Assembly: GCF_003202235.1 (NCBI RefSeq)
Contig: NZ_MASU01000022.1
Coordinates: forward strand, 62,001-126,000
Reading direction: 5' to 3'
DNA length: 64,000 nt
Source: Prauserella flavalba
GTDB taxonomy: Bacteria > Actinomycetota > Actinomycetes > Mycobacteriales > Pseudonocardiaceae
How positions within the stretch are numbered: the first letter of the stretch is position 1; every line of letters starts with the position of its first letter. The position numbers and the translations under genes were made by a program. The notes below the pieces were generated by a model. That model was given only the letters and a program-made list of their open reading frames with translations, had not been told where the DNA came from and did not search any database. Shown here in pieces: positions 38,107 to 57,181 of this stretch.

Positions 38107-39531
38107 GTGTCCACTACTCCAGACGATGTCCTGCGTCTGATCGCCGACGAGGACGTGCAATTTGTCGACGTGAGGTTCTGTGACCTGCCGGGCATCATGC
38201 AGCACTTCACCGTCCCGGCCAAGTCTTTCGACGCGGACGCGTTCGAAGAGGGTCTCGCCTTCGACGGCTCCTCGGTGCGCGGCTTCCAGTCGATCCACGA
38301 GTCGGACATGCTGCTGCTGCCGGACGCCGCCACCGCGCGGATCGACCCGTTCCGGAAGCACAAGACCCTGTCGCTGAACTTCTTCGTGCACGACCCGTTC
38401 ACTCGCGAGGCCTACAGCCGCGACCCTCGTAACATCGCGCGCAAGGCCGAGCAGTACGTCGCCGAGTCCGGCATCGCCGACACGGTGTTCTTCGGCCCGG
38501 AGGCCGAGTTCTACACCTTCGACTCGGTGCGCTTCGACTCGACCGAGCACGGCAGCTTCCACGAGATCGACTCGGTCGAGGGCTGGTGGAACACGGGCCG
38601 CGAGGAAGAGGGCGGCAACAAGGGCTACAAGACCAAGTTCAAGGGTGGCTACTTCCCCGTGCCGCCGGTCGACCACTTCGCCGACCTGCGTGACGACATC
38701 GTCGCGAACCTGGTCGCCTCGGGCTTCGAGATCGAGCGCGCCCACCACGAGGTCGGCACCGCCGGCCAGGCGGAGATCAACTACAAGTTCAACACGCTGC
38801 TGCACGCTGCGGACGACCTGCAGCTGTTCAAGTACATCGTGAAGAACACCGCCTTCGCCCAGGGCAAGACGGCCACGTTCATGCCGAAGCCGCTCTTCGG
38901 TGACAACGGCTCGGGCATGCACTGCCACCAGTCGCTGTGGAAGGACGGCGAGCCGCTGTTCTACGACGAGTCCGGTTACGCGGGCCTGTCCGACACGGCG
39001 CGTCACTACATCGGCGGCATCCTGGCCCACGCCCCCAGCCTGCTGGCCTTCACCAACCCGACCGTGAACTCGTACCACCGGCTCGTGCCGGGCTTCGAGG
39101 CACCGGTCAGCCTGGTGTACTCGCAGCGCAACCGCTCGGCCTGCGTGCGTATCCCGATCACCGGGAACAACGCGAAGGCCAAGCGCATCGAGTTCCGTTG
39201 CCCGGACTCGTCGGGTAACCCGTACCTGGCGTTCGCGGCGATGATGATGGCCGGCCTGGACGGCATCAAGAACAAGATCGAGCCGGCGGAGCCGATCGAC
39301 AAGGACCTCTACGAGCTGCCGCCCGAGGAGGCCAAGAACGTCAAGCTGGTTCCTGGTGACCTGGGCACCGTGCTCGACACGCTGGAAGCCGACCACGACT
39401 TCCTGCTCGAGGGTGGCGTCTTCACCCCCGACGTGATCGAGACGTGGATCAGCTTCAAGCGGGAGCACGAGATCGATCCGCTGCGCCTGCGCCCGCACCC
39501 GTACGAGTTCGCGCTCTACTACGACGTGTGA
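38107..39531 (+). CDS. glnA: glutamine synthetase type I
   Basis: 474 residues, full length. It makes glutamine from glutamate, ammonia and ATP as a cytoplasmic dodecamer. Recognised by [20 protein letters not shown], the [15 protein letters not shown]/metal loop, and the YELPPEE tyrosine near residue 400 that is the adenylylation site of the I-beta class. The start is GTG 38107 with GAAGGAG upstream. A GlnR-type operator precedes it and a strong hairpin follows. Confidence 0.98.
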
Positions 39532-39577
39532 TGCGAAACCGGGTTTGACCTGGTAAAACGCCTGTTTTCGACCACCC

Positions 39578-39588
39578 CAGGCCGTCTA
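39578..39588 (+). repeat. candidate attachment-site core, left copy
   Basis: CAGGCCGTCTA, repeated exactly at 49042-49052. The segment between the two copies contains precisely the six-gene defence island. Weaker similarity continues rightward (GTCA-AG-G in both). Confidence 0.4.
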
Positions 39589-39612
39589 CAGGCCGTCATA
39601 GCGAAAAAACGC

Positions 39613-39641
39613 ACGCGGCCCCGCCATCGGCGGGGCCGCGT
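39613..39641 (+). terminator. glnA terminator
   Basis: ACGCGGCCCCGCC / GGCGGGGCCGCGT, a perfect 13-base stem with a three-base loop, about 80 bases after the glnA stop. The gap 39642-39814 contains A/T-rich promoter-like sequence (TTGACC 39740, TACTAT 39761) and no gene. Confidence 0.8.
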
Positions 39642-39814
39642 TGCGTGTACGAAGCGTAATCAGCACAGGTCAAGACCGGTGGCGCGACGACGGTCGGAGA
39701 TAGCCCACCCACCCCGATCGGGCGATCTCACTTGATTCTTGACCTAACGATCTTGCTTCTACTATTCGGCATGTCGCTCATCGGTCGGTCAGGCTCGTCT
39801 GCTTAACTCTACTC

Positions 39815-40558
39815 ATGGAGTCTTGGGACCCGGACGGGGTTGCGCGCCTGGAGTCGATTCGGGACATGCTGGGCGAGGTCGGCTTGACCGACTTCCTGCG
39901 GGAGGAGATCGGCGCGGTCTGGACCGCGAACCGGGACCGGCATGAGCCCGAGGAGCTCTACGATGACTCCTGGACCTTGGCTTCGCAGTCAAGTCGGAAC
40001 CTGGCGAATCGAATACTCGCCCGCGTTCAGGGCGATGATCGGTGGCGATCGGCCGGCGTGTCCGCGTCGAAGGAACACAACGCCACCGTCCTGCACCTAC
40101 CGGGCTGCGAGATCCGCATGGTCAAGGCGCCCGCGCGGGCTGGTCGCCGACCTGGGTTTGCCAGCGATTTCGAGTGGTCCAGTGGAGCACGTTTGGACGC
40201 GGCCTCCCGAAACCACGCCGTGTATGCGGCGATGGCACCGATGCTGGGGATGGCTTCCCTGTTCGAGGTCGAACAGCCCGACGGCGTGCACCCGGTACAT
40301 GCCTGCCGCGACGTGTTCGCGGTATGGGCTGGCGACCTGACTTCGGGTTTGACCGCAGGTTGGTTCGGGCTGCCGACGACCGGCCCGGATCGGTGGATCG
40401 CCGTCGTCCCGGCATGGTGGGATGAGCCGAATCCCGGTTCGGTCAGTACGGACGAGGTCACGCCGCAGCCTGACAGTGGACCGTCTTTCGGGAGTGGCGT
40501 GGCCCCGACTCCGTCCGTCACGCTCAAGCCTCAGACGGGGAAGGGCAACCCGCAGTGA
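39815..40558 (+). CDS. hypothetical protein, partner of the XRE-ImmA protein
   Basis: 247 residues, soluble, no signal peptide. An aromatic-rich middle (FEWSSGARLDAASRNHAVYAAM, WAGDLTSGLTAGWFGLP) and a disordered Pro/Ser-rich tail. No family is recognised. Its stop overlaps the GTG of the next gene (GTGA), so it is made together with an XRE/ImmA protease. It is the first gene of the island and has no clear Shine-Dalgarno, so may be leaderless. A role as toxin, sensor or substrate of the protease is possible; none is shown. Confidence 0.55.
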   Translation: MESWDPDGVARLESIRDMLGEVGLTDFLREEIGAVWTANRDRHEPEELYDDSWTLASQSSRNLANRILARVQGDDRWRSAGVSASKEHNATVLHLPGCEIRMVKAPARAGRRPGFASDFEWSSGARLDAASRNHAVYAAMAPMLGMASLFEVEQPDGVHPVHACRDVFAVWAGDLTSGLTAGWFGLPTTGPDRWIAVVPAWWDEPNPGSVSTDEVTPQPDSGPSFGSGVAPTPSVTLKPQTGKGNPQ

Positions 40559-41697
40559 CTCCTGAGTCCGGCCCCGTCCTGCGCGCGCGTCGACGGCGGG
40601 CCACCGGAACCGTCGTGGATTTCGATGGAAGGCGCTTGTCTCTCGCCAGGCGTCTCCGGCGACTGCAACGGACGACGCTTGCGGCTAAGACCACCGTGAC
40701 CGCTGCCGCGATCACGCAGTTCGAGCGCGGCACCGCGCGCCCGACGAACGCCGTTGTTGCCGAACTGGCCCTGGCATTGGGGGTTCCCACAGACTTCTTC
40801 CGACAAGGCCGCCCCATCGAGCAGGTCCCCGCGAGCGCCGCACACTTCCGATCGCTTCGCGCGACCCCAGCCATCGCCCGCGATCAGGCGTTGGCCTTCG
40901 CCGAGATCGCCTTGGCGGTTGTGGACGTTCTTGAACAGTACGTCGACCTGCCCACCGTGACGGATATCGTCGAACCTGTCGACGGCGAGCCCACGTCTGA
41001 TCAGGTAGCCACCATAGCTGCGAACACACGCAAGAGACTGGGCGTCGAGCCTGGACCCGTACCTCATGTTGTGCGACTCCTGGAAGCCCACGGCATCGTC
41101 GTTCTCCGTCTTCTATCCGACGTCGACCCGCGAGTTGACGCATTTTCGACTGAAATCGGCCACCGACCTCTTGTGCTGCTCTCCCCCGCCAAGGATGACC
41201 GCGCCCGAAGCCGGTTTGACGCCGCGCACGAACTCGGTCACCTCGTCATGCACCAAGACGTCGAGCCCGGCTCGAAGATCATCGAAAGCCAGGCCCACCA
41301 GTTCGCGTCCGAGTTCCTCGCGCCAACTGCCGAACTCGAGCCTGACCTTCCCCGCAAGGTCGACTGGGACCTGCTTCTCCAGGCCAAGACCAAGTGGGGT
41401 ATCAGTTTGGCGGCGTTGGCATATCGCGCCCATTCCATCGGCCTGTGGAGCGAACACTCATACCGTCGGGCGAATCAGCACCTCGCCGTCCAGGGCTACC
41501 CCGAGCCTGGACCACTTGGACCTCCCGAATCGCCTTATCTACTCGGCGCCGCCACCGCGCTGCTATCAGACGCCGGCACAACGCTCGACCACCTCGCCGC
41601 GGCCAGCCGCCTGACGATCGACCAGATCAACGGCGTCGTGACCGCGGGCAGCGAGACGAAGCCGCGGCTCCGCGTCACCGTCACGCCGCAACCCTGA
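40555..41697 (+). CDS. XRE-type DNA-binding / ImmA-IrrE metallopeptidase fusion
   Basis: 380 residues. An N-terminal XRE helix-turn-helix (about 25-85; TVTAAAITQFERGTARPTNAVV) is joined to a COG2856 metalloprotease with HELGHLVMH near residue 224 and AHQFASEFLAP, the downstream glutamate block. In ImmA/IrrE systems the protease destroys a repressor to switch on a mobile element or stress genes. Here it is fused to its own DNA-binding domain and coupled to an unknown partner. Likely the regulator of the island. Confidence 0.82.
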   Translation: MTPESGPVLRARRRRATGTVVDFDGRRLSLARRLRRLQRTTLAAKTTVTAAAITQFERGTARPTNAVVAELALALGVPTDFFRQGRPIEQVPASAAHFRSLRATPAIARDQALAFAEIALAVVDVLEQYVDLPTVTDIVEPVDGEPTSDQVATIAANTRKRLGVEPGPVPHVVRLLEAHGIVVLRLLSDVDPRVDAFSTEIGHRPLVLLSPAKDDRARSRFDAAHELGHLVMHQDVEPGSKIIESQAHQFASEFLAPTAELEPDLPRKVDWDLLLQAKTKWGISLAALAYRAHSIGLWSEHSYRRANQHLAVQGYPEPGPLGPPESPYLLGAATALLSDAGTTLDHLAAASRLTIDQINGVVTAGSETKPRLRVTVTPQP

Positions 41698-41739
41698 CCA
41701 GCATCGCGATTCTCGGCTCGATCATTAACTGGAGGTTCT

Positions 41740-43704
41740 GTGCATCTCAGCCGCCTTGCGATCAGGGGGTTCAGGGCTGCAGCTGACGCTGAACTTCAGT
41801 GCCGTTTTCCTGGACGGTTCAGCTTGCTGGTGGGTGCCAACAACGTGGGTAAAACCACGGTCAGCGATGCCCTCTACCTGGCGCATCCGCAGGTGTTTCC
41901 ACGGCTGGGACGACCGCCCTCATCCACCCTTGGTGCTCCTCCACGCACGATCGAGGTGGAGTACGAGTACGCAACCGCGCCTGACGTCGAGGGGCCGCTC
42001 GGTCGCCTGCTGCATACTCAGAGCGGCGTCGATGCGAAGGGCGTAGCCACGACGTGGACCCGTGGACTCGGACGATCACTCGGTCAGATCGAGACCAGAG
42101 CTTTGGTCGCATCGCCACACCAGGACCTGTTCCGATTGATTTACCTGCCGGCGTACCGCAATCCGCTGGACGAGCTCGCGCGCCGGGAAGCTCGCATCCT
42201 GATCGAACTCTTGCGTGCGCAACAGCAACGGGCGAACGGCAGTAGGAACCTTGTAGGGCTGCGAAGCAAGGCGTCGGCCCTACTGGAGGCGCTCACCAGC
42301 GACGGTTTGATCAAAGCAGTCGAGGAACGCATCGATGGACATCTCGCGGCGCTCTCGGCCGGAGTCAGCCGCCAACACCCCTTCATCGGCGGTCAAGTCA
42401 TCGACGATGCGTACCTCGCTCGCGTGCTGGAGCTGCTGATCGGCGTCACCGACAATCGCCTCGACGCACGCCGACTCGAAATTTCCGGCCTGGGCTACAT
42501 CAACCTCCTGCACGTCGCCGTCACCTTGGCGGCCATCCCGGACCTGACTGCGAACGAAACAAGCACCTCCGACCACCCCGAAACCGACGAACAGCCCGTA
42601 CCTAACAAAGAACCCGCTTTCGGGCCTGGAGACGGTGCACTCGGGGACAACGGCCAAGACACAATCCAGGCACGTCAGCGGACCGCAAACGCCGACGCCG
42701 AGCGCGACTCCGAGGAAGACTCCTTCTTTCCGCCCAGCGCGTTCCACGCCACGGTCGTCATCGAGGAACCCGAGGCCCACCTCCATCCCCAACTCCAGCA
42801 CGGGCTCGTGCGGTACTTGCGCGCAGTGGCGCAAAGGCGACCAGAACTTCAGGTGATCTTGAGCAGCCACGCGACCGATATCATCACAACGTGCCGGCCC
42901 GAAGAGGTCGTTGTGTTGCGCCGCGACCACGTAGGCCGGCCAGTTGCTCGCACTATCGCCACGATTCCTATCGTCGGGCGCAACGAGGTCCTTCGGATGG
43001 CCCGTCTGCATCTCGACGCGACTCGGTCGGCGGCACTATTCGCGGAGCGGCTCGTTCTGGTTGAAGGCGTCACGGACGCCCTTCTCGTGCGACAATTCGG
43101 CCGCGCCTGGGCTGGCACAGATCTCGAACGGAAGGCGTTCATCGACGCGCTGACCATTGTGGTCATGGGCCATAAGGTCGGCTCGTGGCCCGTTCGCCTG
43201 CTCGCCACAAAAGAGTACGAGTTGGCGGATCGCGTGGCAGTCCTGCGAGATAGTGACCTTCCTTTCAATGAAGAACCCCGCCGCCCGGCGTGGCTGACAG
43301 ACCACGATGACAAGATAGTCGGCTTCTTCCCAAACCATCCAACGCTCGAACCCGCAGTGACGTCCGGGAATGAAGAAGCCATACTCGCCGCGCTCGCTTC
43401 CGTCGAACTGGAGCACCCCTCGCCAATCACACGTGAGTCGATTCACGAGCTGTTTCGCAGCGCCAGGAAAGCCAATAAGACGAACGGAACACCGGCAGTT
43501 CCCGCCGGACCTGGCGCATCCAAGAAGGGCGAGTTTGCGATGGCGCTCGCGGATATCCTTCTTGACCGCCTCGAAAAGCGGCTCAACGTGACGGTTCCGG
43601 ATCATATGACCGAGATGTTCACCTTTCTTTACGAGTCATACGTTGCAGAAGAAATCCCGGTACCTGTGACTGCGGAGCCCGGACTCGATGACCACAACAT
43701 CTAA
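41740..43704 (+). CDS. GajA-like OLD family ATPase-TOPRIM nuclease
   Basis: 654 residues. It starts at GTG 41740 with GGAGG upstream. ABC-type ATPase core: Walker [11 protein letters not shown] (32-40), Walker [13 protein letters not shown] (about 341), H-loop SSHAT (about 375). The C-terminal TOPRIM domain has [12 protein letters not shown] (about 441) and VLRDSDLP (about 503). This is the OLD nuclease plan; next to a UvrD-like helicase it matches the Gabija defence protein GajA. The linker at about 265-325 is long and acidic. It overlaps the helicase gene by 17 bases. Confidence 0.85.
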
Positions 43705-45172
43705 GGAGGCACTTACTGCCGAGCAAGCCCGAGCAGCCGGAAGTACTGACGCCAACACGTATATCGAAGCGGCGCCCGGCTCCGGTAAGACAACTGTGGC
43801 CGCTGAACGATTCGGTATCCTTCGCTTCAGCCCTCACCGCGACGACCGAGCCGTGGTCGCTGTCAGCTTCACACGATCGGCCACGGCAGAATTGGCGCAG
43901 CGTATCCGCCGACGCTGGGGGTCGAGCGCGTTGATATGGCCGCATCGAGTGGTTACTCTCGATACCGTACTCTGCGATCTACTGACGTACCTGTTGCGCC
44001 GGGGGTTGCTGCATTGGCCTGGAGGCCACGCGGAACTGACCGTCCATGACACCTGGAAAGTCCGTCTCGCACACCATTGGAAACGCCAGCAGCCGTACCT
44101 CACCGTCGACGACGACAACAACATCGCCGTGACTGCCGGGTGGGCCAGGGATCACGACAACCGAGTCGATCTAGAACCTTTTCGAGAGGCTGTTTGCGCT
44201 GGTGAATGCACTCACGACGACATTCGCAGAGTGCTGGCTACCACACTAAACAGGCCAACTATCGCCAATGCAATTGCGGAACGTCTGCAAGACACGATTC
44301 GAGCCCTGATCGTCGACGAGGTATTCGACGCCAACCCCCTTGATTTGTGGCTAGTCGATATCGTCTGCGAACAGGGCATTGACACGAGCATAATCGGCGA
44401 TCCCTGGCAAGCGCTCTACCGATTCCGCGGGGCTCGACCTGAGCATGTTCCCAATCTCGTCCAAGAGAAGGGTTTCATCCGTCGCGCACTAACCAAGTCG
44501 TTTCGGTTTCGCACACAGGAGGCCCAGGCGCTATCAGCGAGGCTCCGCGCCGGACAGCCAGTTACCATTCCATTCGGCACCTCACTGGACGCTGACGTGG
44601 TTCTAGCTGGCACATGGAAGAACCTCTGGGGAAGCGGAGATAACGTACTTCCACTCTCGTTCAGCAGTACTCCCGAGAACCCAACCGAGGCGGCGGCTAT
44701 TCTACTCCTTGATCGGGTCACCCAAATCACTTTGGGTCAGCACGCAACGTTCCTGGGAGAAGCTCTCACAAACCTTGGTATCACCGATCCGGAAGCTGTC
44801 GCTCGGATGTCGCAGCCCTTTACCGAGATCCTTGAGGTTCTTGCTAGCGCAGACCCGAAGTCCGCCGATGCGGCCTGGACCAAGCTTGTCGGCGTCGTGC
44901 GGACTGAGTCGCCACGGGAATTTCCAAGAAAGCATCCCACACAAGTTGCCCGCCTAGAGAAGATTCGACAGGCCCTTCGGAGTGATACACCGAAATTCAT
45001 TCCTGGAATCACTATTCACCAAGCCAAGGGGCGCGAGTGGGACACTGTCGCCGTTCGGCTCACCGACGGTGAACGCGAGACACTGGCCAGAGGACTCGAT
45101 GGCTTGAACGAAGAGCACCGCAAGCTATACGTCGCGTTGACCCGCAGCAGAGTGCGAACGATTTCGATCTGA
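43688..45172 (+). CDS. GajB-like UvrD-type helicase
   Basis: 494 residues, the short single-chain size of GajB. Walker [14 protein letters not shown] (29-36), motif Ia [13 protein letters not shown], motif II VDEVFD (about 208; UvrD proteins usually have DExxD as DEYQD or DEAQD, so the glutamine is lost), motif [17 protein letters not shown], motif [14 protein letters not shown] (about 443), motif [10 protein letters not shown] (about 480). With the overlapping OLD gene it forms a Gabija-like two-protein anti-phage system. GC content is visibly lower than in neighbouring genes, a sign of transfer. Confidence 0.83.
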
Positions 45173-45427
45173 AGTCTGCGCTGCGCGTGACCGAGGCGCA
45201 GACGGCGGAAGGACTGTGAGCTGTCTTTGTCCAGCGACCCTGACAACAACTCCCCTATCGCAAGGAACCCTAAGTCACCTTTCGCGACCACCGGTGCCGT
45301 GCCGATGCTGCGACCACCGGAAACCGTCGGGGCTGGGTGAGATGATGGTCACCTGGAGTGATATGGGCACACCGAAGGCCACACCAGACCGGTCCGTGGG
45401 CCTATCGGCAGAGAAGGGGCGCGAGGC
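45173..45427 (+). other. island intergenic region, likely Argonaute promoter
   Basis: 255 bases without a convincing gene, the only sizeable gap in the island. It contains the direct repeat GCGACCACCGG (near 45280 and 45308). It probably separates the Gabija-like transcript from the Argonaute-nuclease transcript. Confidence 0.4.
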
Positions 45428-47737
45428 ATGAGCGATATGCGCGGGCAGCGGCCGGTTTCACCTCAGCTCGCCTTCAACTTCGTGCCGGTCACCTTCTCGG
45501 CAGAGGCGTTCGACGGCGGTCTGATCGACTTCGAGTCACCCGACCAGCTGAACTTGCTGCGTGCAGAACTGGTGGACACCCACGTTGTGTCCAGGACCCG
45601 CGGAGGCATCGCCTGCGTTCCGCTGGTAGCCGACGCGGAACTGCACGGGAAGCCGACGACGTTCGTAACCAGGGAGTACCGACGGCTCACGATGCGGCTG
45701 GTGCAACAGGCACTGCTGCGCTCGGTGCTGGAGTGGGGTTACACGCTGCGCAAGCCCGGACGGGCGAACTTCGTATCGCGGCGGGAGGGCAAGGACCTGC
45801 TCACAGCGGCCACCCAAGGCCGCAGGGCTGAAGCAGTGCGCGACCTGCACGTGTTCCCGCAGTACGTCCTGGACAGCCGGGTCGTCGGACCGTCCGGTGC
45901 CCCCGGCGTGATCGTCGGGGTGAAGACCCGCTATGAGATCGACCTGACCGTCGAGGAGCTGATCGGGCTCGGGGTCAGCGTCCGCGATTGCTACGTGGTG
46001 TCCGACGACGGCACGATCGAGCCTTTCGCGCACATGGACCCCACCGCGACCCGCCGCAACGTCGGAGCCGTAGACCACGTCGACGGCCCCGACCTAGTCC
46101 TGCGGGATGCGCCCGGCGATCCGCGCGTGGCGGCGAGCCGGGCATGGTTGGAGAGCCGCCGTGACATCTTCCACACCGTCATCAATACGGTGGCGGGCGC
46201 GGACGGCGCCCAGATCATCAAGGAGCTGGAGCTGGCCACGTTCGGGCTGCTCGGTGCGTTCGGCCGGTTCGAGAAGACGATCGAGATCGCCGGCAACCTG
46301 GCCCGCCGCGGCCCGCTGGAGATCGCCCACGGTCTCTCGGTGACTCTGGAGCCACCAGTCGGCTCGACGAGCACCGCCCGAGCCGCGACATGGAGCCGCA
46401 GCGAGGCGCCGACGTTCAAGTTCGACCAAGCCGGCGATAAGACCCACCGCTCGGCCGACCGCGGCCTGGACGAGTACGGGCCGTTCGACGTGGAGTTCTT
46501 CGCGAAGAAGAAACCGCGAATCGCGGTGGTCACCCCCCGCGCCCACAAAGGCATCGTGGAGCAGTTCATGACCAAGTTCCTCCACGGGGTTCAAGGCGAG
46601 CGGGTCTACGGGCAGGGTTTCATCCGCAAATACCACCTCGGCGGCTGCGATGTCCGCCTGCAACCTTTCGACGGCAGCCCAACCGACGCGGGCGCCTACC
46701 GGAAGGCGTGCCAGGCGGTGCTGCAGGCGGGCGAGGTTGACCTGGCCATCGTCATCACGAGCGAGGCCCAGGTGCATCTGACCGGGGACGACAGCCCCTA
46801 CTTGGTCGCGAAGTCGACGTTCATGGGCCAGGGCGTCCCGGTCCAGGAGGTCCGGATCGAGACCGCCCGACAGAGCAAACTCGGCTATCCGCTCGACAGC
46901 ATCGCCCTGGCCTGCTACGCCAAGCTCGGCGGCATCCCCTTCGTCATCGCCGCACCACGTGCCTTGACCCAGGAACTGGTCATCGGGATCGGCAGCTCCC
47001 ACGTCAAAGCCAGCCGCAACACCGCCCCCGAACGAGTCGTCGGCATCACCACCGTCTTCAGCGCCGACGGCAACTACCTGCTGTCCAACACCTCCCGCGA
47101 GGCGGACTACGAGGACTACCCCGGCGAACTCCTGCGATCGCTGACCGAGTGCATCGAGGACGTCAAGGCCCGCAACGCCTGGCAGCCCGGCGACGAGATC
47201 CGCCTCGTCTTCCATGTGTTCAAGCCGCTGAAAGACGCCGAAGCGATAGCAGTCAAGGAACTCGTGGAAGACCTGACCAGCCAGTACGCCAAGGTCGAGT
47301 TCGCCTTCGTGCACGTGAGCACTGACCACGAATGGATGATGTTCGACCGCGCCAGCTCTGGAATATCAGGCCGGGGCAACGGACGCGCCAAGGGCCACTA
47401 CGTGCCCGACCGCGGCTACGCCGTACCGATCGGCACCCACGAGATGCTGCTGGCCGTCAGCGGCCCAATGGACCTGAAAAGCGCCCTACACGGCGCGCCC
47501 AAGCCGTTGTTGCTGAAACTGCACCGTGAGTCCACCTTCACCGACATCGAGTACCTCGCCCGGCAGGCGTTCCGTTTCACCGCGATGTCCTGGCGCAGGA
47601 TGTATCCCTCGAGTGCACCCGTCACGATCCTGTACTCCGAGTTGATCGCCGACCTTCTCGGTCACCTCCGTCACGTGCGGAACTGGAACCCCGACATCCT
47701 CGCCACCAAACTGCGTTCCAGCAGGTGGTTCCTGTGA
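45428..47737 (+). CDS. long prokaryotic Argonaute with inactive PIWI domain (long-B type)
   Basis: 769 residues. The block GLDEYGPFDVEFF / KKKPRIAVVTPRAHK leads into the MID domain, whose guide-end pocket has YLVAK (about 457), Q in VPVQEV (about 474) and K in CYAKLGG (about 500). PIWI follows: QELVIGIGSSHVKA (about 519) has glycine where active Argonautes have the first catalytic aspartate, and LVFHVFKPLKD lacks the later aspartate, so the slicer is dead. The N-terminal 300 residues would hold N and PAZ-like domains. ATG 45428 follows AGGGGCGCGAGG. It is coupled by GTGA to a nuclease gene, the arrangement of long-B Argonaute defence systems. Confidence 0.85.
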   Translation: MSDMRGQRPVSPQLAFNFVPVTFSAEAFDGGLIDFESPDQLNLLRAELVDTHVVSRTRGGIACVPLVADAELHGKPTTFVTREYRRLTMRLVQQALLRSVLEWGYTLRKPGRANFVSRREGKDLLTAATQGRRAEAVRDLHVFPQYVLDSRVVGPSGAPGVIVGVKTRYEIDLTVEELIGLGVSVRDCYVVSDDGTIEPFAHMDPTATRRNVGAVDHVDGPDLVLRDAPGDPRVAASRAWLESRRDIFHTVINTVAGADGAQIIKELELATFGLLGAFGRFEKTIEIAGNLARRGPLEIAHGLSVTLEPPVGSTSTARAATWSRSEAPTFKFDQAGDKTHRSADRGLDEYGPFDVEFFAKKKPRIAVVTPRAHKGIVEQFMTKFLHGVQGERVYGQGFIRKYHLGGCDVRLQPFDGSPTDAGAYRKACQAVLQAGEVDLAIVITSEAQVHLTGDDSPYLVAKSTFMGQGVPVQEVRIETARQSKLGYPLDSIALACYAKLGGIPFVIAAPRALTQELVIGIGSSHVKASRNTAPERVVGITTVFSADGNYLLSNTSREADYEDYPGELLRSLTECIEDVKARNAWQPGDEIRLVFHVFKPLKDAEAIAVKELVEDLTSQYAKVEFAFVHVSTDHEWMMFDRASSGISGRGNGRAKGHYVPDRGYAVPIGTHEMLLAVSGPMDLKSALHGAPKPLLLKLHRESTFTDIEYLARQAFRFTAMSWRRMYPSSAPVTILYSELIADLLGHLRHVRNWNPDILATKLRSSRWFL

Positions 47738-49020
47738 CCGCGCCAGAGGCACCAGACGCTGCCAGCCCAACCGGGCAACTGGCAGCGCAGATCGCCAGCC
47801 TGGAACAACTCGTGCTGCGCGCGAACCTGCCCGGCAACCTCGACGGGTTGCTCGCCCACCACATCCTGGGTGATCACCGCGTGAGCTTCGCCTGGAACGT
47901 CAACCCCATGACCGCAGGATGGCTACAGGACAACGAGGACCGCCTGGCTCATTCCTCGGGACTGGCCATCCTCGGCTACGGCCTCGCAGAATTCGCCTCC
48001 ACCGCATCCCACACCGGGCGGCGCCACCTCGCCGAAGGACTTCCGGCACTGATGCGCAAGAACCCTTTCCAGGCCGACGGCGTCACCTTTGTCAACGACC
48101 CCGGCCAGGTCGTCGGACTCGCGCTGGCCGTCAACGCCGCCCACGAGTACGCACCCCAGGCACGCACCTGGCTGGCAGAAGTACTCCACGACCCCCGCCT
48201 ACAGTCCCCAACCGCGTTGCTCGGGATGTTCCACCAGCACGCACGCCACATCATCGCGGCCCCCACTGCTTTCCGACCCGACCCACGCCAACTCGACGAC
48301 CCTGTCGATCTCGCCGGCCTGCACTGGCTTGTGACCGCCGACAGGAGCGTCGACCTGACTGACCCCAACGACCTGCACGATCTGCGCTCCCGGCTGCTCA
48401 GCGGCCTCATCCTGGGACAGACCGAACCATCCTCAGCCCCGCGGGCCGCATTGCTGCTCGCGGCAGCCGCACACATCGTCACGGCCAGCGTCGACGACCT
48501 CATCCTCAGCCGCAGCCATGTAGGCGTACTGCTGGGCCGATTCGAGGACGCCATGCGCCACTGGCGCTACGACAACGACACTCTTGATCATCCCATCCGC
48601 TGGCCGATCACCGAAGAACGCGAAGTCCAGAACATCCTCTGGCTCATCCTGCGCCCGGTTTTCGACGACCTGGTCGACGAGGAAACCTTGCGCAAACTCG
48701 GGCACAGTACCTACCGCGCCGACTTCGGCATCCCGTCGCTCGGTTTGCTCATCGAGGTCAAGTACGCGCGCAAGGCGGCCGACTTCAAGACCTTCGAGAA
48801 GGAAATCATCCAGGACTACGTCGGCTACCTGACCGACAACGAGCCCTATCGCAAGCTGGCCGTGTTCATCTACGACGAATCCGCCTCCGTACAAGAACAC
48901 GGCACGACTCGCAACGCCCTGCTCAAGATGCCTGACATCACCGACGTCATCATCGCCAGCCGGCCCAGCCACGTACCCGTACCCGACCGAAGCAACCGCC
49001 GACGAAACAACTCACACTGA
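47734..49020 (+). CDS. Argonaute-associated PD-(D/E)XK nuclease
   Basis: 428 residues. The first 270 residues are helical and unrecognised (possible Argonaute-binding or regulatory part). The C-terminal domain carries a PD-(D/E)XK core: E near 293 in EEREVQNILW, D near 327 in YRADFGIPS, and E-x-K at about 339-341 in LLIEVKYAR, with a following helix KEIIQDYVGYL. The GTG at 47734 overlaps the Argonaute stop by four bases. By analogy with described long-B Argonaute-associated nucleases, guide-dependent target recognition would unleash DNA degradation and kill the infected cell. This is inferred from family and context. Confidence 0.8.
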   Translation: MTAPEAPDAASPTGQLAAQIASLEQLVLRANLPGNLDGLLAHHILGDHRVSFAWNVNPMTAGWLQDNEDRLAHSSGLAILGYGLAEFASTASHTGRRHLAEGLPALMRKNPFQADGVTFVNDPGQVVGLALAVNAAHEYAPQARTWLAEVLHDPRLQSPTALLGMFHQHARHIIAAPTAFRPDPRQLDDPVDLAGLHWLVTADRSVDLTDPNDLHDLRSRLLSGLILGQTEPSSAPRAALLLAAAAHIVTASVDDLILSRSHVGVLLGRFEDAMRHWRYDNDTLDHPIRWPITEEREVQNILWLILRPVFDDLVDEETLRKLGHSTYRADFGIPSLGLLIEVKYARKAADFKTFEKEIIQDYVGYLTDNEPYRKLAVFIYDESASVQEHGTTRNALLKMPDITDVIIASRPSHVPVPDRSNRRRNNSH

Positions 49021-49041
49021 GCTGATCTCGCCCGCCAAGGT

Positions 49042-49052
49042 CAGGCCGTCTA
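49042..49052 (+). repeat. candidate attachment-site core, integrase-proximal copy
   Basis: CAGGCCGTCTA, identical to 39578-39588, 109 bases from the integrase 3' end, the normal place for an att core. The interval 49053-49160 has no gene. Confidence 0.4.
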
Positions 49053-49160
49053 GAGCGCTGTCAGAGTGAACCGGACCGTCGCCTTAGCGGGGCGGCCAGG
49101 CGATACGCAGCACGGTCAGTGGGGGCCGAGAAACCCGGCCACCACTGACCACGCAATGTG

Positions 49161-50384
49161 TCACTCGCCGCCGAAGATGCGGTCGATCGCCGAACGGGTC
49201 CGGGCGGCGCTGGAGGGCATCAGGTGTGTGTAGACGCGGAGGGTGAAGGCCGGGTCGGCGTGGCCGAGGTATTCGGCCAGTGCCCGGATGTTCTCCCCCG
49301 CGTCCAGCAACACGGAGGCGTAGAAGTGGCGCAGGGCGTGGAAGCCGTCGGCTCGTACCGGTTCGGCGACGCCCGCTTCGCGGAGCGCTGGTTTCCACAC
49401 GTGCCGGTTGAAGTACATCCGGTGGATCGCGGTGCTTTCGCGGGTGTAGAGCAGCAGGCGCACGGTGACCGGGTCGCCATCGGGCTCGCCCCAGGGCAGG
49501 GTGATCTTCAGCGGGGGGAACTGCTCGACGTGCTCCTTGATCGCCAGCCGCACCTCGGTCGGCAGGGGCACCTCGCGGGTCTTGCCGTGCTTGGGCAGGC
49601 CGAACACCAACTGCCCGCGCACGATCTTGATCTGGCGCTCGACCCGCAACTTCTCCGTGTCTTCGTCCACGTCGTCCGGCGAGATGCCGAAGACCTCGCC
49701 CTGGCGAAGCCCGCATCCGCCGCCGAGCGGCACCGTGACCTTGTACCGGTCCGGCAGGGCGTCGTGCACGCCGTGCACGCGCTCGGGCACCCACGGGACG
49801 ATCTTGGGGTACTCGCCGCGTGGTGCGGTGACCGACTTCGCGGTGCAGGGGTTCTTGTTCAGGCGTTCGTCGTCGATGGCGGCGGAGAAGATCGCCGAGA
49901 CGTTCGCGAAGATCAGACGCCGGTAGGTCTCGGCCAGCCCCTTCTTCTGGAGCGCACGGTCCCACTCGCGGATATTCGACGGCTTGATCGCGCTCAGCCA
50001 TCGGTTACCCAGGTGGGGGTAGACGTGCAACCGCAGTCGAATCTCGGTTCCTTCTCGCGTGGTTTCTTCGAAGGTCTGGGAATTGAGCCACGTTTCCGCG
50101 AACTCCTTGAAATGGATTTTGCCCGCGTCGGGGTCGAGATAAGTTCCCTTCTTCATGTCGTTTTCCATCTGGTGCATGAAGTCCTGCGCCGCACCCAACT
50201 TGCGGTCGGGGAACGTTTTCGAGCGTTCCTGACCGTCCGGGTCGATGTAGCGGACCTTGTACCGCATCCCCTTGCCGTAGAAGGAAGTCTTCTGCTTGAC
50301 CGGCCGCCCCTTGGCATCGAGCACCGGCTCACCCGTGTCGGGGTCGATTTTCTCGCTGTACCAGCGGTCCTGGATGTGCGCCAT
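49161..50384 (-). CDS. int: tyrosine site-specific integrase
   Basis: 407 residues. An N-terminal arm-binding/SAM-like region (about 1-160; FAETWLNSQTFEETTREG) is followed by the catalytic domain with R in GCGLRQGEVFG, H-x-x-R in HALRHFYASVLL, and the nucleophile Y in LRVYTHLMP. It catalyses integration and, with Xis, excision of the element. The ATG at 50384 is the first codon after the excisionase gene; longer frames overlap xis. The gene points away from the element body, as is common when int lies beside an att site. Confidence 0.95.
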   Translation of the reverse strand: MAHIQDRWYSEKIDPDTGEPVLDAKGRPVKQKTSFYGKGMRYKVRYIDPDGQERSKTFPDRKLGAAQDFMHQMENDMKKGTYLDPDAGKIHFKEFAETWLNSQTFEETTREGTEIRLRLHVYPHLGNRWLSAIKPSNIREWDRALQKKGLAETYRRLIFANVSAIFSAAIDDERLNKNPCTAKSVTAPRGEYPKIVPWVPERVHGVHDALPDRYKVTVPLGGGCGLRQGEVFGISPDDVDEDTEKLRVERQIKIVRGQLVFGLPKHGKTREVPLPTEVRLAIKEHVEQFPPLKITLPWGEPDGDPVTVRLLLYTRESTAIHRMYFNRHVWKPALREAGVAEPVRADGFHALRHFYASVLLDAGENIRALAEYLGHADPAFTLRVYTHLMPSSAARTRSAIDRIFGGE

Positions 50385-50397
50385 TGTCGTCCCCCTG

Positions 50398-50586
50398 TCA
50401 GGCGGCGTCGGCCGTGGCCCACCGACGAACGGCGGCCGGGTCGTATCGGAGATGCTTTCCCAATTTCCGAGCAGGCGGTCCGGAGCCGCTCTTGCGCCAG
50501 GCGCGCACGGTCTCGACGGGGACACGCAAATAGGCCGCAACATCATCCACGGTCCACAGCCGGTCGATACTCGAAGACTTGTCCAT
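50398..50586 (-). CDS. xis: excisionase (HTH_17 family)
   Basis: 62 residues with a MerR-like winged helix: WTVDDVAAYLRVPVETVRAWRKSG and the wing RKLGKHLRYDPAAVRRW. Such small proteins direct the integrase toward excision. The ATG at 50586 (MDKSSSIDRL) is preferred to a 16-residue longer frame because it starts at the domain. It precedes int by 13 bases in one operon. Confidence 0.88.
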   Translation of the reverse strand: MDKSSSIDRLWTVDDVAAYLRVPVETVRAWRKSGSGPPARKLGKHLRYDPAAVRRWATADAA

Positions 50587-50685
50587 TGTTCCTCCAAGAC
50601 CTTTTCGGCCCGGATTTTTAAACAGCAAGAGCACGGCAGCCCCTTTCGCCGCTGACGAGGGAAAATGGAGGCCGCGTTATTTCAG

Positions 50686-50730
50686 TTGACGGCCACGGGA
50701 TATCCACGCTCCATACACCGCAGCCGTCAA
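50686..50730. promoter_or_regulatory. inverted repeat upstream of xis-int, possible operator
   Basis: TTGACGGC (50686-50693) and GCCGTCAA (50723-50730) flank 29 bases in the 177-base gap before xis. This could be an operator for element control. Confidence 0.3.
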
Positions 50731-50763
50731 GCGCGATTCATAGAGAAGCCTTTTCATCGGCCG

Positions 50764-51039
50764 CTAGCCACCGGGCGGGCGATCGCCAGTACGTGAGACG
50801 CGCGGTCCGCCGTTCGGCCCCGTACGGCGTTGTGGGCGGGTGCCGCGGCGCCGCCGCGCCGGTGTCCGGCCAGGGGGCCGCTGCGCACCACCATCAGCCG
50901 GACGGGTGCGGGTCCGCCGAACCGGCTCAGGCCACGGCTGCACCGGATATCCCTCGCGGCGCAGTTCCTCGTCCACGTCGTGCTGCAGCGCGGTGATGGC
51001 GTCGAAGGTCCACCCGTCCGGGTGGTGGCAGATTGTCAT
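50764..51039 (-). CDS. small hypothetical protein with basic disordered tail (91 aa)
   Basis: 91 residues: an ordered start (MTICHHPDGWTFDAI, DVDEELRREGYPVQPWP) followed by an Arg/Gly/Pro-rich tail. The ATG overlaps the stop of the upstream recombinase-like gene (TGATG), which supports it being translated. No known domain. Last gene of the leftward element operon before xis. Confidence 0.5.
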   Translation of the reverse strand: MTICHHPDGWTFDAITALQHDVDEELRREGYPVQPWPEPVRRTRTRPADGGAQRPPGRTPARRRRGTRPQRRTGPNGGPRVSRTGDRPPGG

Positions 51040-51767
51040 CACGCGGCCCACCGATCCGACGGCAGGTCGAAAGGGTCACCTGACTCGGGCGGCGCGGTCG
51101 CCAGACGGGTGTGCCGGTTGGCGGCGAGGAACTCCTCGGCGGTGACGACCGGCGGGTGCGCCCACGCCTGCGACCAGACCCAGCACGCGCGCGGGGCACG
51201 ACGACCGTGGTGGCGGCGACCCCAGACTTGGCGACCCAAGTACTTGGGGTTTCGGAGGACGGACCGCACAACGCCCGCGGTCCAGACGCCAGGCTGGCCG
51301 GTCTCCGGGTCCAGCGGTGCCGGGTACCGCGCGGCGGTGAGACGGCGGAGGATCTCGGCGATGGGGAGACGGTCTTGGCCGCGCCACAAGAAGATCATGC
51401 GAACGGTGCTGGCCTCGACGGGCTCGATCACCAGCCGCGTCCGCCACCTCGGACGACGCCCGGCCGGGGTAACCCGCACACGCTGCGGCCGGTAGCCGTA
51501 GGGCACGACGCCCGTGTTGAAGCCCGCCAGGACGAGTTGCTCCGCCGCCCGCCGGGCCTTGGCGGTGGTCGCCGCGTGGTAGTCGCGCAGGACGACCTCG
51601 CGCACGAAGGCCGATACTCGGTCAGCGTGAACCGCCCGATCATGGCAACGGCCGCGTCGGAGACGCCGCTTCGCCGTGCACCGCAGACGGGCACGCCAGG
51701 ACCAGTGCCCAGCAGTCGCGGCCCAACGGGGGATCTCGCCGCCAGAGTCGTCTCGTTCGGTGGTCAC
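51039..51767 (-). CDS. recombinase-like protein lacking a resolvase catalytic domain
   Basis: 242 residues. The central and C-terminal parts (LVLAGFNTGVVPYGYRP, IAEILRRLTAARYP, WTAGVVRSVLRNPKYLGRQVWGRR) match the Recombinase DNA-binding domain of large serine recombinases, but the N-terminal resolvase domain with its catalytic serine is missing. Similar free-standing proteins occur in actinobacterial integrative elements. The GTG at 51767 has GGAGGT six bases upstream; another GTG at 51605 is possible. It may bind DNA without strand exchange. Confidence 0.7.
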   Translation of the reverse strand: MTTERDDSGGEIPRWAATAGHWSWRARLRCTAKRRLRRGRCHDRAVHADRVSAFVREVVLRDYHAATTAKARRAAEQLVLAGFNTGVVPYGYRPQRVRVTPAGRRPRWRTRLVIEPVEASTVRMIFLWRGQDRLPIAEILRRLTAARYPAPLDPETGQPGVWTAGVVRSVLRNPKYLGRQVWGRRHHGRRAPRACWVWSQAWAHPPVVTAEEFLAANRHTRLATAPPESGDPFDLPSDRWAA

Positions 51768-51898
51768 GGTGCACCTCCGGTTTGTGAGGGCCGCCATGCC
51801 GACGGCAAAGGGGGCGGCGTCCTGCGGGGGCCTCTGTTCCGCGGCGGGCTCTGCGCGGAAACGAGGCGAGGGGCTGGGCACGCCAGCCCGTTGCTTGA

Positions 51899-52834
51899 TC
51901 ACCCCGCGCGCTCCTTGGTGTCGTGCCCCGCGATGGCGGCGCCGGAGCGGCACGACCAGGGCGAGCAGCCGTCCGGGTCGTCCTCCTCGGCCGCCGTGGA
52001 CGCGGTGACCAGGCGCAGGTGGCGCTTCGCGCGGGCGGGCGGGTCGAGGTCGACTTCGTCGAGCGGTTGGCAGGAGCGGTGCAGGAAGTACTGCCCGCGC
52101 AGCTCTTGGCCCTGGGTGGTGGCGTGCGGGTAGCCGTCGCGGATCGCCTTGTCGAACGCGACGGCGTCGGCCCAGCCGTCCGGGTCGTGGTCGCGGATCC
52201 ATCGCCAGCCGGCGTTGCCGTGAAAAGGACAGCCCAGGCAGGCGGATTTCACGGTTCCCGCGAAGCCGCGCTCGGCGAGATAGTCGACGCACCGTGCGCG
52301 GTCCCAGCCCAGCTCGATCAGCGGGAACACGTTGCGCAAATACTGGACACCCGAGTCCTTCGCGTGCGTGAACTCGTCGGTGCTGATGCCGATGGCTTGC
52401 TCGACGTACAGCCCGCGCGGCACCCGGCGTGGATGCGGGTAGCCCAGCAGCTCGCGCGCCGCCTTCTTCAGCGGCCCAATTTTGTACTCGCTAGTACATT
52501 GCCTTCGCGCCAAGCCTCGAGTGCCGTCCGGGTTGAGCACGTGCAGCGGCATCGACACGAACCGATGGGCCGGGTCGAGCGCGTCGTCGCGGATGTTGCC
52601 CGCCGACACAGTGCGGACCGGGATGCCGAACTTCGCCGCGTGCGCACGGAGACGGGCAAGGTTGGCGTACACGGCCTTCGGTTCCCACCCGGTGTCGGCG
52701 AACAGCGCGACATCGAAGCGCGGGATCACTCCCTCACAGGCGAGCAGCAGGACTGCGCTGCTCTGGATGCCTGCGCCGAGGCTCAAGCACCGCAAGGCCG
52801 GTCGGGGATCCGGTGTGGACGCTGACCTGGTCAT
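51899..52834 (-). CDS. PAPS-reductase-like PP-loop protein
   Basis: 311 residues. The N-terminal nucleotide loop LSLGAGIQSSAVL is the SGGxxS-like PP-loop of the adenine-nucleotide alpha-hydrolase group, followed by FADTGWEP and conserved cysteines in RQCTSEYKIGPLKKA and SACLGCPFH that could hold a metal or Fe-S site. True sulfate-assimilation enzymes occur in cys operons; this one is coupled (ATGA) to a DNA cytosine methyltransferase, suggesting nucleic-acid modification or sulfur transfer, as with phage and mobile-element homologues. Its reaction is unknown. Confidence 0.75.
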   Translation of the reverse strand: MTRSASTPDPRPALRCLSLGAGIQSSAVLLLACEGVIPRFDVALFADTGWEPKAVYANLARLRAHAAKFGIPVRTVSAGNIRDDALDPAHRFVSMPLHVLNPDGTRGLARRQCTSEYKIGPLKKAARELLGYPHPRRVPRGLYVEQAIGISTDEFTHAKDSGVQYLRNVFPLIELGWDRARCVDYLAERGFAGTVKSACLGCPFHGNAGWRWIRDHDPDGWADAVAFDKAIRDGYPHATTQGQELRGQYFLHRSCQPLDEVDLDPPARAKRHLRLVTASTAAEEDDPDGCSPWSCRSGAAIAGHDTKERAG

Positions 52835-54339
52835 GCCGCGCTCGCCTCCTGTCCGTGGCCGAGGCGGTCAGCGGACGTGCCGGCATCAGCGGCGCCGAGG
52901 AGTGCGGCGAGGTCGGCTAGCAGCAACGAGACGGCGTAGGCGGCCTGCTGCGGGACGACGCCGTTGCCCAGCGCGCGCAACTGCGCGGTGCGCGGCAGCG
53001 GCAGGCCCGTCACCCAGCCGGGCTCCAAGCCTTGAAGCCACTCGACGAAGGCGGGTGCGAGCACGGGCCGGCCGTGTCGACCCGGCTGCGTTGGGAACGG
53101 CGCGGGTCGGCCGAGCACCTGCTCCCACCGCCGCACAGCCGGCGCGTAGACACCCCAGCTCACCTCGCCGCGCGTCGGCTCGCTGTCCTGATCGGACGGC
53201 GCGGGGACGACTACGAGGTGCCGTCGCCGTCCGGCGTCGCGCAGTCCGGTGTCAGCAGGCGCATCACGGCCGAGGGCAACATCAGGTCCCCCTTGGAACC
53301 GCGTTGCGCCGGAGCGCCCTTGGTCCCGTCGGTCGCCCGCGGCGTCGGCAGCAACGCCTGCGGGTCGACCAACGGGAGCACCTGCTGCGACAGCGGCGGC
53401 CGGAACCCTGCCCCCGCGCGGCGTCCCGCCGTGCCGGTATCCGACGCCCTCGGCGTCGGCAGCAACCGCGCCTCGTCGGGCAACGACGGCCCACCGGTCT
53501 GCGTCCTGTGGGTGCAGTTTTTCGCATCCGAAGCCGTCGGTGTCGGCAGGAGCTTGACCACCGCATTCACCGCGTCGTGCAGACTCACCTGACGGCCGAG
53601 CGCCCGGCGACGAACCGGGTCCGCCGCCCCGCGGTGATCCCCGTCGCGCGCCTGCGGCGTCGGCAGCATCCGAGATGGTGCGGGTTCGTGGCCAGGCGAG
53701 CAGGAACACGCGTTCTCGTCGATGTGCCGCGCCGACGTCGGCGGCGCGGACGCTACGCCAGAGCGCGTCATACCCCGCTTCGGCCAGGTCGCCGAGTACA
53801 CGGTGCAGACCTCCGTCTTTCCAGCGAAGCGCGGCGACGTTCTCCACAACGAGGAGCGCGGGTCGTAGTACGCGAACGCCCGCCACGATGTCGGACCACA
53901 AGCCACTGCGGTGACCTTTCTCGATGCCGATACGCCGCCCGGCGGCGGAAATGTCCTGGCACGGGAACCCTGCCGTGAGCACGTCGACCGGCTCCACCGT
54001 GGTCCAGTCGATGCGGCGAACGTCGCCGAGATTCGGGACGCCCGGCAGCCGTGCGGCGAGGATCTGACGGATGTGCGGGTCGGGGTCGGCGCACCACGCG
54101 AGCCGTCCGCCGCCGAGCGCGGCCAGCACGCCGAGGTCCAGTCCGCCGTAGCCGGTGCACACCGACCCGACAACCGGTCCGCAGCTTGCGGCGACCGACA
54201 CGTTCGGCGGTGCAGTTGAGGGCACGGTCTGGCAAGTGGCCGCCCGCGCCGCCCCCGCCGCCGTCGTGGGGACGGCGACGAGGGCGGGGGCGGAGCCGCG
54301 CCCCGACCGAGACATGGTGCGGCTGAGCCGGGAGGTCAT
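52831..54339 (-). CDS. DNA (cytosine-5) methyltransferase
   Basis: 502 residues. Motif I GSVCTGYGGLDLGV, the catalytic cysteine in AGFPCQDISAAG (motif IV), ENV (motif VI) and RRERVF (motif VIII) lie in the first 190 residues; motif X-like RALGNGVVPQQAAYAV near the C-terminus. The 53 kb region between is low-complexity, with short repeats readable in two frames. The ATG at 54339 overlaps the previous stop (ATGA). No cognate restriction enzyme is evident, so it probably masks the element from host restriction or acts as an orphan modification enzyme. Confidence 0.88.
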   Translation of the reverse strand: MTSRLSRTMSRSGRGSAPALVAVPTTAAGAARAATCQTVPSTAPPNVSVAASCGPVVGSVCTGYGGLDLGVLAALGGGRLAWCADPDPHIRQILAARLPGVPNLGDVRRIDWTTVEPVDVLTAGFPCQDISAAGRRIGIEKGHRSGLWSDIVAGVRVLRPALLVVENVAALRWKDGGLHRVLGDLAEAGYDALWRSVRAADVGAAHRRERVFLLAWPRTRTISDAADAAGARRGSPRGGGPGSSPGARPSGESARRGECGGQAPADTDGFGCEKLHPQDADRWAVVARRGAVAADAEGVGYRHGGTPRGGRVPAAAVAAGAPVGRPAGVAADAAGDRRDQGRSGATRFQGGPDVALGRDAPADTGLRDAGRRRHLVVVPAPSDQDSEPTRGEVSWGVYAPAVRRWEQVLGRPAPFPTQPGRHGRPVLAPAFVEWLQGLEPGWVTGLPLPRTAQLRALGNGVVPQQAAYAVSLLLADLAALLGAADAGTSADRLGHGQEASAA

Positions 54340-56623: not shown

Positions 56624-57181
56624 GGATGCCTCGCAGAGTCCGGGGATGCGCCGCGCTGGACGTGGCGCCCTGACACCTATCGACTCCGAAAAACGGCCCA
56701 ATTTTGGACAGGCCCTGCCCAACTTTTTCGAGAAGTTTTCTGGTCGCCCAATGCGGATTCTGCGGACAGAGGATCCGCGCGTGTGCGCTCGCGCGGAGGG
56801 ATTGCGCGGGATGGTCGTGCACCGATCGGCAGACCACTGAGGAAAGAATTTTGGCTTCCTCCAGCGCTGCGGCGAGGTGACGACGGCGCTTGAGGGTCGA
56901 CAGACGCGGCGGGCTATTACCGGATCGCCACCAAAACGCCACCAAAACACTGTTACAGCAGTTCAGAGGCTATTACCAACGATCATCAAACGATCTTTCG
57001 TCGAGGGATCGCGGACGGCGCAGGCGACCTCTAGATGATCTTTGTGGCGGCCAAAAATGATCATTCAAGATCATCGGTGGCGGTTTGGTGGACTTTTGGT
57101 GGCGGTTTCGTGGCGGTTTGGTGGACTTAATTTGGCGTCCTTGTCTGGTCGTTGTTTCACCGGCCTCGCAAGGAGCTGACC
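56624..57181. repeat. repeat-rich divergent control region of the element
   Basis: 558 bases without a gene, more A/T-rich than its surroundings. GCCACCAAAAC is tandemly duplicated at 56927-56948. In the opposite orientation, GGTGGCGGTTTGGTGG-type units recur at 57076-57130. Between them lie several GATC-centred motifs (GATCATCAAACGATC, AATGATCATTCAAGATCAT). It separates the methyltransferase operon from the conjugation operon and is a candidate for promoters, an origin of transfer or iterons. Confidence 0.6.

Follow-up and report, generated by a model that had tools for sequence, protein, structure and literature searches.

Systems related to the locus

According to PMC6299218, the catalytic tetrad is missing from every prokaryotic Argonaute (pAgo) of the long-B type, and nearly all of them have the YK motif. 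Song et al. 2023 gave the name BPAN to systems in which an inactive long-B pAgo is encoded upstream of the nuclease bAgaN (PMC10620215). In EcBPAN of E. coli, the pAgo uses a 5'-phosphorylated RNA guide, and the binding of single-stranded target DNA leads to non-specific DNA degradation and cell death (PMC10620215). A predicted nuclease gene also lies downstream of the gene of RsAgo from Rhodobacter sphaeroides (PMC10620215), a long-B pAgo of solved structure (PDB codes 5awh and 6d8a). SPARDA and other short pAgo-nuclease systems are comparable by analogy, combining guide RNA, target DNA and a collateral DNase.

The locus described here is a pair of adjoining genes in the actinobacterium Prauserella flavalba, located within a stretch of 64,000 nucleotides (contig NZ_MASU01000022.1, positions 62,001 to 126,000), hereafter the window, to which coordinates refer where no locus handle is given. 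We consider the pair, with a probability of roughly 85%, to be an actinobacterial BPAN system, comprising a long-B pAgo and a bAgaN and acting as an RNA-guided, DNA-triggered, DNA-degrading cell-killing pair. An initial annotation had proposed an inactive long Argonaute coupled to a PD-(D/E)XK nuclease, and both assignments are borne out by PADLOC profile matches and by the solved relatives of the two proteins.

The Argonaute

Sequence comparison confirms the first protein as a full-length, slicer-dead Argonaute of the long-B type. It matches the PADLOC profile pAgo_II (PDLC02379) with 822.9 bits over positions 2-724 of 724, its best solved relatives are RsAgo (5awh, E 8e-108) and EcAgo (23wq, E 3.8e-87), and Pfam Piwi is matched with 47 bits. 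In RsAgo the guide 5' phosphate is contacted by Y463, K467, Q478 and K506, the guide-binding residues also including R481 and T484 (PMC4919518). The four contacts align with Y458, K462, Q473 and K499 of the window protein (the RsAgo chain in the alignment is numbered one above the published numbering), the same Y, K, Q, K pocket that had been read in the MID domain at the outset. These four residues and G522 are invariant in all 11 Argonautes aligned; R476 and T479, the counterparts of R481 and T484, are retained in the window but variable among its relatives.

The catalytic site was compared with that of Thermus TtAgo by hhalign profile alignment (probability 85%, E 6e-6), the fourth tetrad position lying outside the aligned stretch. 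The alignment places (i) G522 at the first catalytic aspartate, (ii) E562, which is not conserved among relatives, opposite the glutamate finger E512, and (iii) V597 opposite D546. Slicing should therefore be lost, and the glycine at the first PIWI aspartate and the missing later aspartate of the initial annotation are both recovered. D640, within MMFDRAS, was considered as a retained catalytic aspartate and ruled out, since the alignment with TtAgo puts V597 at the D546 site. The window Argonaute thus displays both long-B traits, tetrad loss and a YK-type MID domain, and shares with RsAgo the long-B type, the glycine at the first catalytic position and the guide-pocket residues.

The nuclease

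The second protein matches the PADLOC model Aga_Helical-REase (PDLC02407) with 643.5 bits over positions 2-399 of 401, and its C-terminal half (residues 266-415 of P0002) matches Pfam DpnII-MboI with 127 bits and E 5.3e-37. The sole solved chain that it matches is EcbAgaN, co-deposited with EcAgo in 23wq, an entry known here by its molecule names only. The E values for RsAgo and DpnII-MboI, together with the PADLOC scores, exclude a chance match, and the Argonaute fold and the nuclease core are secure through their sequence relationship to solved structures. A search against Argonaute and partner profiles, suggested in the initial annotation as a check, returned 823 bits for pAgo_II and 644 bits for Aga_Helical-REase.

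The nuclease active site comprises D330, E341 and K343, which match D298, E309 and K311 of EcbAgaN, residues required for DNA cleavage (PMC10620215). All three are invariant in 13 of 13 nucleases aligned, window sequence included, in agreement with the D, E-x-K residues first noted; this alignment and the pair counts below leave out the partial locus L026, loci L069-L073 and the partial matches L005-L009 and L015.

The N-terminal half had been regarded as unrecognised and as a novelty of the system, a claim that is not supported. It lies inside the PADLOC Aga_Helical-REase models and aligns by hhalign (probability 95%, E 1.7e-8) with the N-terminal halves of three E. coli-type relatives, encoded on plasmids of Methylococcus, Shewanella and Fibrella. 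A profile of the full-length nuclease, built on an alignment that includes the Shewanella relative, reaches EcbAgaN from residue 69. Judged by these alignments, the N-terminal half is a divergent form of the known helical half.

Coupling of the two genes

The reading frame of the nuclease spans 47725-49020, and the GTG at 47734 is its likely start, sharing four nucleotides with the Argonaute stop TGA, as the four-base overlap of the initial annotation implied. Such an overlap is possible in 12 of the 13 adjoining Argonaute-nuclease pairs, counted without L026, in which transposases lie between the genes. The hexamer AGGTGG, directly 5' of the nuclease start and within the stretch encoding the conserved Argonaute terminus RWFL, is a possible ribosome site for the nuclease. 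In 9 of the 13 genes the fourth-last Argonaute residue is encoded by AGG, though AGG is a minority arginine codon there, and this preference, which places AGGTGG before the nuclease start, reads as translational coupling of the two genes. The region immediately upstream of the Argonaute presumably holds the promoter of the pair; a promoter scan of it returned no sigma-70-type consensus. The features of the locus are collected in Table 1.

Table 1. Features of the Argonaute-nuclease locus and its surroundings, in window coordinates
Feature	Coordinates	Strand	Basis
Long-B prokaryotic Argonaute, 769 aa, PIWI site inactive by alignment	45428..47737	+	PADLOC, PDB relatives, Pfam
MID guide 5'-phosphate pocket, Y458/K462/Q473/K499 (plus R476, T479)	46799..46924	+	RsAgo alignment
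Gly522 (GIG) at the first catalytic Asp site (TtAgo D478)	46991..46993	+	hhalign with Thermus TtAgo
bAgaN-type nuclease, 428 aa from GTG 47734	47734..49020	+	PADLOC, Pfam, EcbAgaN
Nuclease architecture: helical-type N-terminal half and DpnII/MboI-like PD-(D/E)XK C-terminal half	47734..49020	+	
GTGA, nuclease start over Argonaute stop	47734..47737	+	Open reading frames
Nuclease active site, D330 and E341-V342-K343	48721..48762	+	Alignment, EcbAgaN
Region upstream of the Argonaute, kept in genome G901 without the Gabija-like genes	45232..45427	+	Alignment block starts at 45232
Neighbouring stretch outside the pair, holding genes of Rosmerta-like (39815-41697) and Gabija-like (41740-45172) type	39609..45231	+	PADLOC
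Candidate attachment core ACTACGACGTGTGAT, made up of the 14 final bases of glnA and one more	39518..39532	+	15-mer repeats
Tyrosine integrase open reading frame beside the pair	49161..50597	-	Pfam Phage_integrase, 51 bits

Proposed mechanism

By analogy with EcBPAN, the Argonaute would load 5'-phosphorylated small RNAs and bind complementary single-stranded invader DNA without cutting it, its PIWI site being lost. Target binding would activate the translationally coupled nuclease, which would then degrade DNA indiscriminately, so that the infected cell is killed or arrested, or the plasmid cleared. The abortive-infection role that the initial annotation assigned to the pair is, on the same analogy, very probably right. 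The window pair shares with EcBPAN the gene order, a slicer-dead long-B Argonaute, a YK-type MID domain and a PD-(D/E)XK partner with D-EVK, and an E. coli-type relative (L027) matches the same PADLOC models. In contrast, the pair belongs to a divergent actinobacterial branch in a high-GC host, and its best nuclease model is PDLC02407, not PDLC02404. SPARDA and similar systems comprise a short pAgo and an APAZ-nuclease partner, whereas the window encodes a full-length Argonaute.

The nuclease might instead substitute for the lost slicer, the guide-bound Argonaute recruiting it so that only the recognised invader DNA is cut and the cell survives. The idea of slicer replacement for inactive pAgos associated with nucleases has been raised (PMC6299218), and Pfam groups the C-terminal half with the DpnII/MboI restriction enzymes; we judge this explanation unlikely and prefer the cell-killing BPAN system.

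Several points bear on the BPAN reading, most of them against it. The trigger and the guide type cannot be read from the sequence, and the literature search returned no experiment on an actinobacterial BPAN member and, by title or opening of the abstract, no work on actinobacterial long-B Argonautes; neither PMC10620215 nor PMC6299218 has the word stem 'actinobacter' in its main text. The nuclease is only 22% identical to the Shewanella relative, and a HMMER profile of ten N-terminal halves alone matched no PDB chain; given this low identity and divergent half, nuclease activation could differ from that of the E. coli type. Finally, the pairwise distances of Argonaute and nuclease mirror each other closely (r = 0.995 for 11 loci and 55 comparisons, with none of 5000 permutations reaching this r), which speaks for co-evolution of the two proteins and for the BPAN reading, but such mirroring also reflects shared history, no host-tree control being included. 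The trees of the two proteins have the same main splits with minor differences, several inner forks being weak and long branches meeting.

Distribution and selection

The distribution of the pair was assessed in samples of genomes from the host family, order, class and phylum, which overlap. The Argonaute model matches (i) 13 of 390 genomes of the family, nine with full-length and four with partial sequences only, (ii) 5 of 397 genomes of the order, three of them full length, and (iii) 3 of 394 genomes of the class, own genome counted, with a full-length match in the own genome only. The nuclease model matches 8 of 200 family genomes, three at full length with the own genome counted, and 2 of 396 genomes of the phylum, full length in the own genome only. 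In all nine family genomes with a full-length Argonaute, the nuclease adjoins it with the Argonaute upstream. A scan for close relatives found five actinobacteria among named genomes (Catellatospora, Actinokineospora, Nocardia, Actinoplanes and Phytohabitans). There are 13 distinct actinobacterial loci including the window, genome G905 and the Actinokineospora locus being counted once, and both genes are intact in 11 of the 12 others. Actinobacterial hosts are thus not unusual, yet rare outside a few families; with full-length Argonautes in nine of the 390 family genomes, the high-GC actinobacterial host is not the novelty it had been taken for.

Outside chromosomes, relatives of the nuclease occur in six plasmid records; none was found in phage records, and none is encoded in 13 candidate stretches of viral contigs, a search that detects close relatives only. 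The Shewanella pair was matched in one of 5426 E. coli genomes.

Individual loci display further arrangements. Loci L021, L022 and L023 (genomes G031, G171 and G849) belong to three genera and encode near-identical Argonaute-nuclease pairs, with end branches of about 0.01 in the Argonaute tree; their neighbours differ, and a Gabija pair was found beside L021 only. About 2.5 kb past the Argonaute-nuclease pair of genome G930 lies a pPIWI_RE-type gene (L072:15446-18733; PADLOC PprPIWI, 336 bits), so that this region has two different PIWI-domain defence genes. The complete pair on pSA70-2, a Shewanella plasmid, is preceded by another nuclease-like stretch, which is partial (L027:1973-2740), and on the Alicycliphilus plasmid pDP3 an intact nuclease (L024:5510-7197) follows the last 145 residues of an Argonaute, representing an orphaned effector.

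Both genes of the pair are under purifying selection. Compared with G901, a genome of another genus, the ratio of nonsynonymous to synonymous substitution (dN/dS) is 0.19 for the Argonaute and 0.21 for the nuclease, with 0.27 for its N-terminal and 0.10 for its C-terminal half. The synonymous divergence of the pair is 0.20-0.23, below that of glnA, the one host gene compared (0.46), which suggests that the pair moved between genera.

Signs of decay are seen elsewhere in the family of systems: the Argonaute of the Phytohabitans locus L014 is split over two frames, possibly through sequencing error, the plasmid L024 keeps only the Argonaute terminus described above, and 4 of the 13 matching family genomes hold partial sequences. 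The window pair could, in the same manner, be a decaying, non-functional remnant of an island; with its frames, guide pocket and nuclease site intact and dN/dS about 0.2 for both genes, this is the least probable of the alternatives considered, and the functional BPAN system remains preferred.

The probable integrative element at glnA

The similarity of the host chromosome to three congeners ends no more than six bases from the glnA stop codon, and the DNA that follows glnA in these congeners is found on contig C4 of the host genome. The 15-mer at the end of glnA recurs on contig C4, where it marks the opposite junction (L050:2065-2079); it is also present at glnA in genomes G084, G053 and G901, and is not exact in G014. 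Both presumed ends have in common the motif CAGGCCGTCTACAG, located just inside the element end that falls in the window (39578-39591) and on contig C4. These repeats and boundaries point to a probable integrative element inserted at the 3' end of glnA, with its ends on contigs C22 and C4; the two contigs are not joined, and a rearrangement is a possible alternative to insertion. Its ends being on two contigs, the element is probably tens of kb long. The contig C4 end carries type I restriction-modification genes (HsdM, HsdS and HsdR-like; L050:2467-8001), and the G+C content in 2-kb windows is 0.59-0.66 across 38-51 kb of the window vs 0.66-0.74 elsewhere.

The pair and the adjoining integrase lie near one end of this element, and the genomic context suggests that the pair probably travels as its cargo. 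The true integrase start probably lies inside the open reading frame listed in Table 1; the same integrase, 85% identical, adjoins the pair in G901, where a stop falls within the first few codons. Half of the other 12 actinobacterial loci, namely the six loci L010, L014, L022, L069, L071 and L072, have a relative of the window integrase in their flanks. In G901, glnA, the 15-mer, the Argonaute, the nuclease and the integrase are all present, and the block corresponding to 45232-50754 is 89% identical at the DNA level; window positions 39609-45231 have no counterpart there, 71 bp standing in their place.

Two further observations concern this region. Between nuclease and integrase, CAGGCCGTCTAGAG (49042-49055) is one base off the element-end motif of 39578-39591; none of 100 shuffles gave two such motif matches, the pattern having been picked after the repeat was seen, and the site may be bound by the integrase or may represent an earlier site of attachment. 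Past the integrase, 51039-56950 holds a recombinase gene (PF07508) and, after it, genes for DNA methylases of the C5 and N6/N4 types, and 50945-56293 is partly syntenic with G901 at 73-79%.

More speculatively, actinobacterial BPAN may be a weapon of the element itself: the Argonaute-nuclease-integrase block at glnA would guard this niche against competing plasmids and integrative elements, Rosmerta-like and Gabija-like cassettes would be gained or lost, and the divergent helical half would sense the Argonaute or target binding otherwise than in the E. coli type. We offer this only as a tentative and doubtful extension.

The Gabija-like and Rosmerta-like neighbours

Upstream of the pair, two genes that lie side by side match PADLOC RmrT (101 bits) and RmrA (498 bits), of a system that we take to be Rosmerta; a literature search on RmrA and RmrT gave nothing useful on mechanism. 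They are followed by a GajA-like gene (PADLOC GajA, 163 bits in pieces; Pfam OLD-like_TOPRIM, 22.5 bits against a cut-off of 23.2) and a GajB-like gene (PADLOC GajB, 143 bits; Pfam UvrD-helicase, 81 bits). The initial annotation had counted the pairing with a Gabija-like module among the novelties of the locus. Gabija-like pairs stand next to three of the 13 loci, arranged differently each time: upstream in the window, downstream on the same strand at L021 (a strong match) and downstream and convergent at L014 (a weaker one). This adjacency does not amount to a claim of enrichment.

The flanks were scanned with PADLOC on 80 open reading frames (at least 150 aa, with a third-position G+C content of at least 0.7) at eight loci. 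At the later loci L069 and L071-L073, 44 flanking frames were scanned, the results covering the first 25 of the 81 families, and nine frames were also scanned singly. In these flank scans no GajA/GajB-like pair was found at the other 10 of the 13 loci, for L069 and L071-L073 among the matches listed. L069 has a lone UvrD-like gene past glnA, outside the block, and L073 a lone OLD/GajA-like gene (67 bits); a candidate Gabija pair at L012 was dropped, the two large frames tested matching nothing. The window GajA and GajB matched none of the other loci by tblastn, a result misleading as to the presence of Gabija, as PADLOC did find pairs.

The pair could be part of a larger, operon-like machine together with the upstream Gabija-like, and perhaps Rosmerta-like, genes: all lie on the same strand, only 255 bp separate the GajB-like stop from the Argonaute start, and Gabija-like pairs recur at L021 and L014. 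However, the arrangement varies, most loci yielded no such pair, and the GajA/GajB types differ, those of the window matching none of the others by tblastn. G901, moreover, has glnA, the attachment core and the Argonaute-nuclease-integrase block without 39609-45231. A shared machine is accordingly very improbable, and Gabija as an obligate partner was ruled out by its occurrence at three loci only, the differing arrangements and the absence from G901. Since G901 keeps the pair without this stretch, the Gabija-like module is not needed for retention of the pair; by this comparison it is separable, optional cargo, and its pairing with the Argonaute is not a novelty of the system.

Implications

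The mechanism proposed for the pair is that of an already described system; new here are the element setting at glnA and the comparison with G901. The recently described RNA-guided abortive-infection system is thereby extended to a set of high-GC actinobacteria, and the pair probably moves as cargo that lodges at one definite place in the chromosome, the 3' end of glnA. The separable neighbourhood of Argonaute and Gabija-like genes is a caution against over-reading the neighbours found in defence islands, and the 91% identical proteins of another genus would provide intact natural variants for testing.

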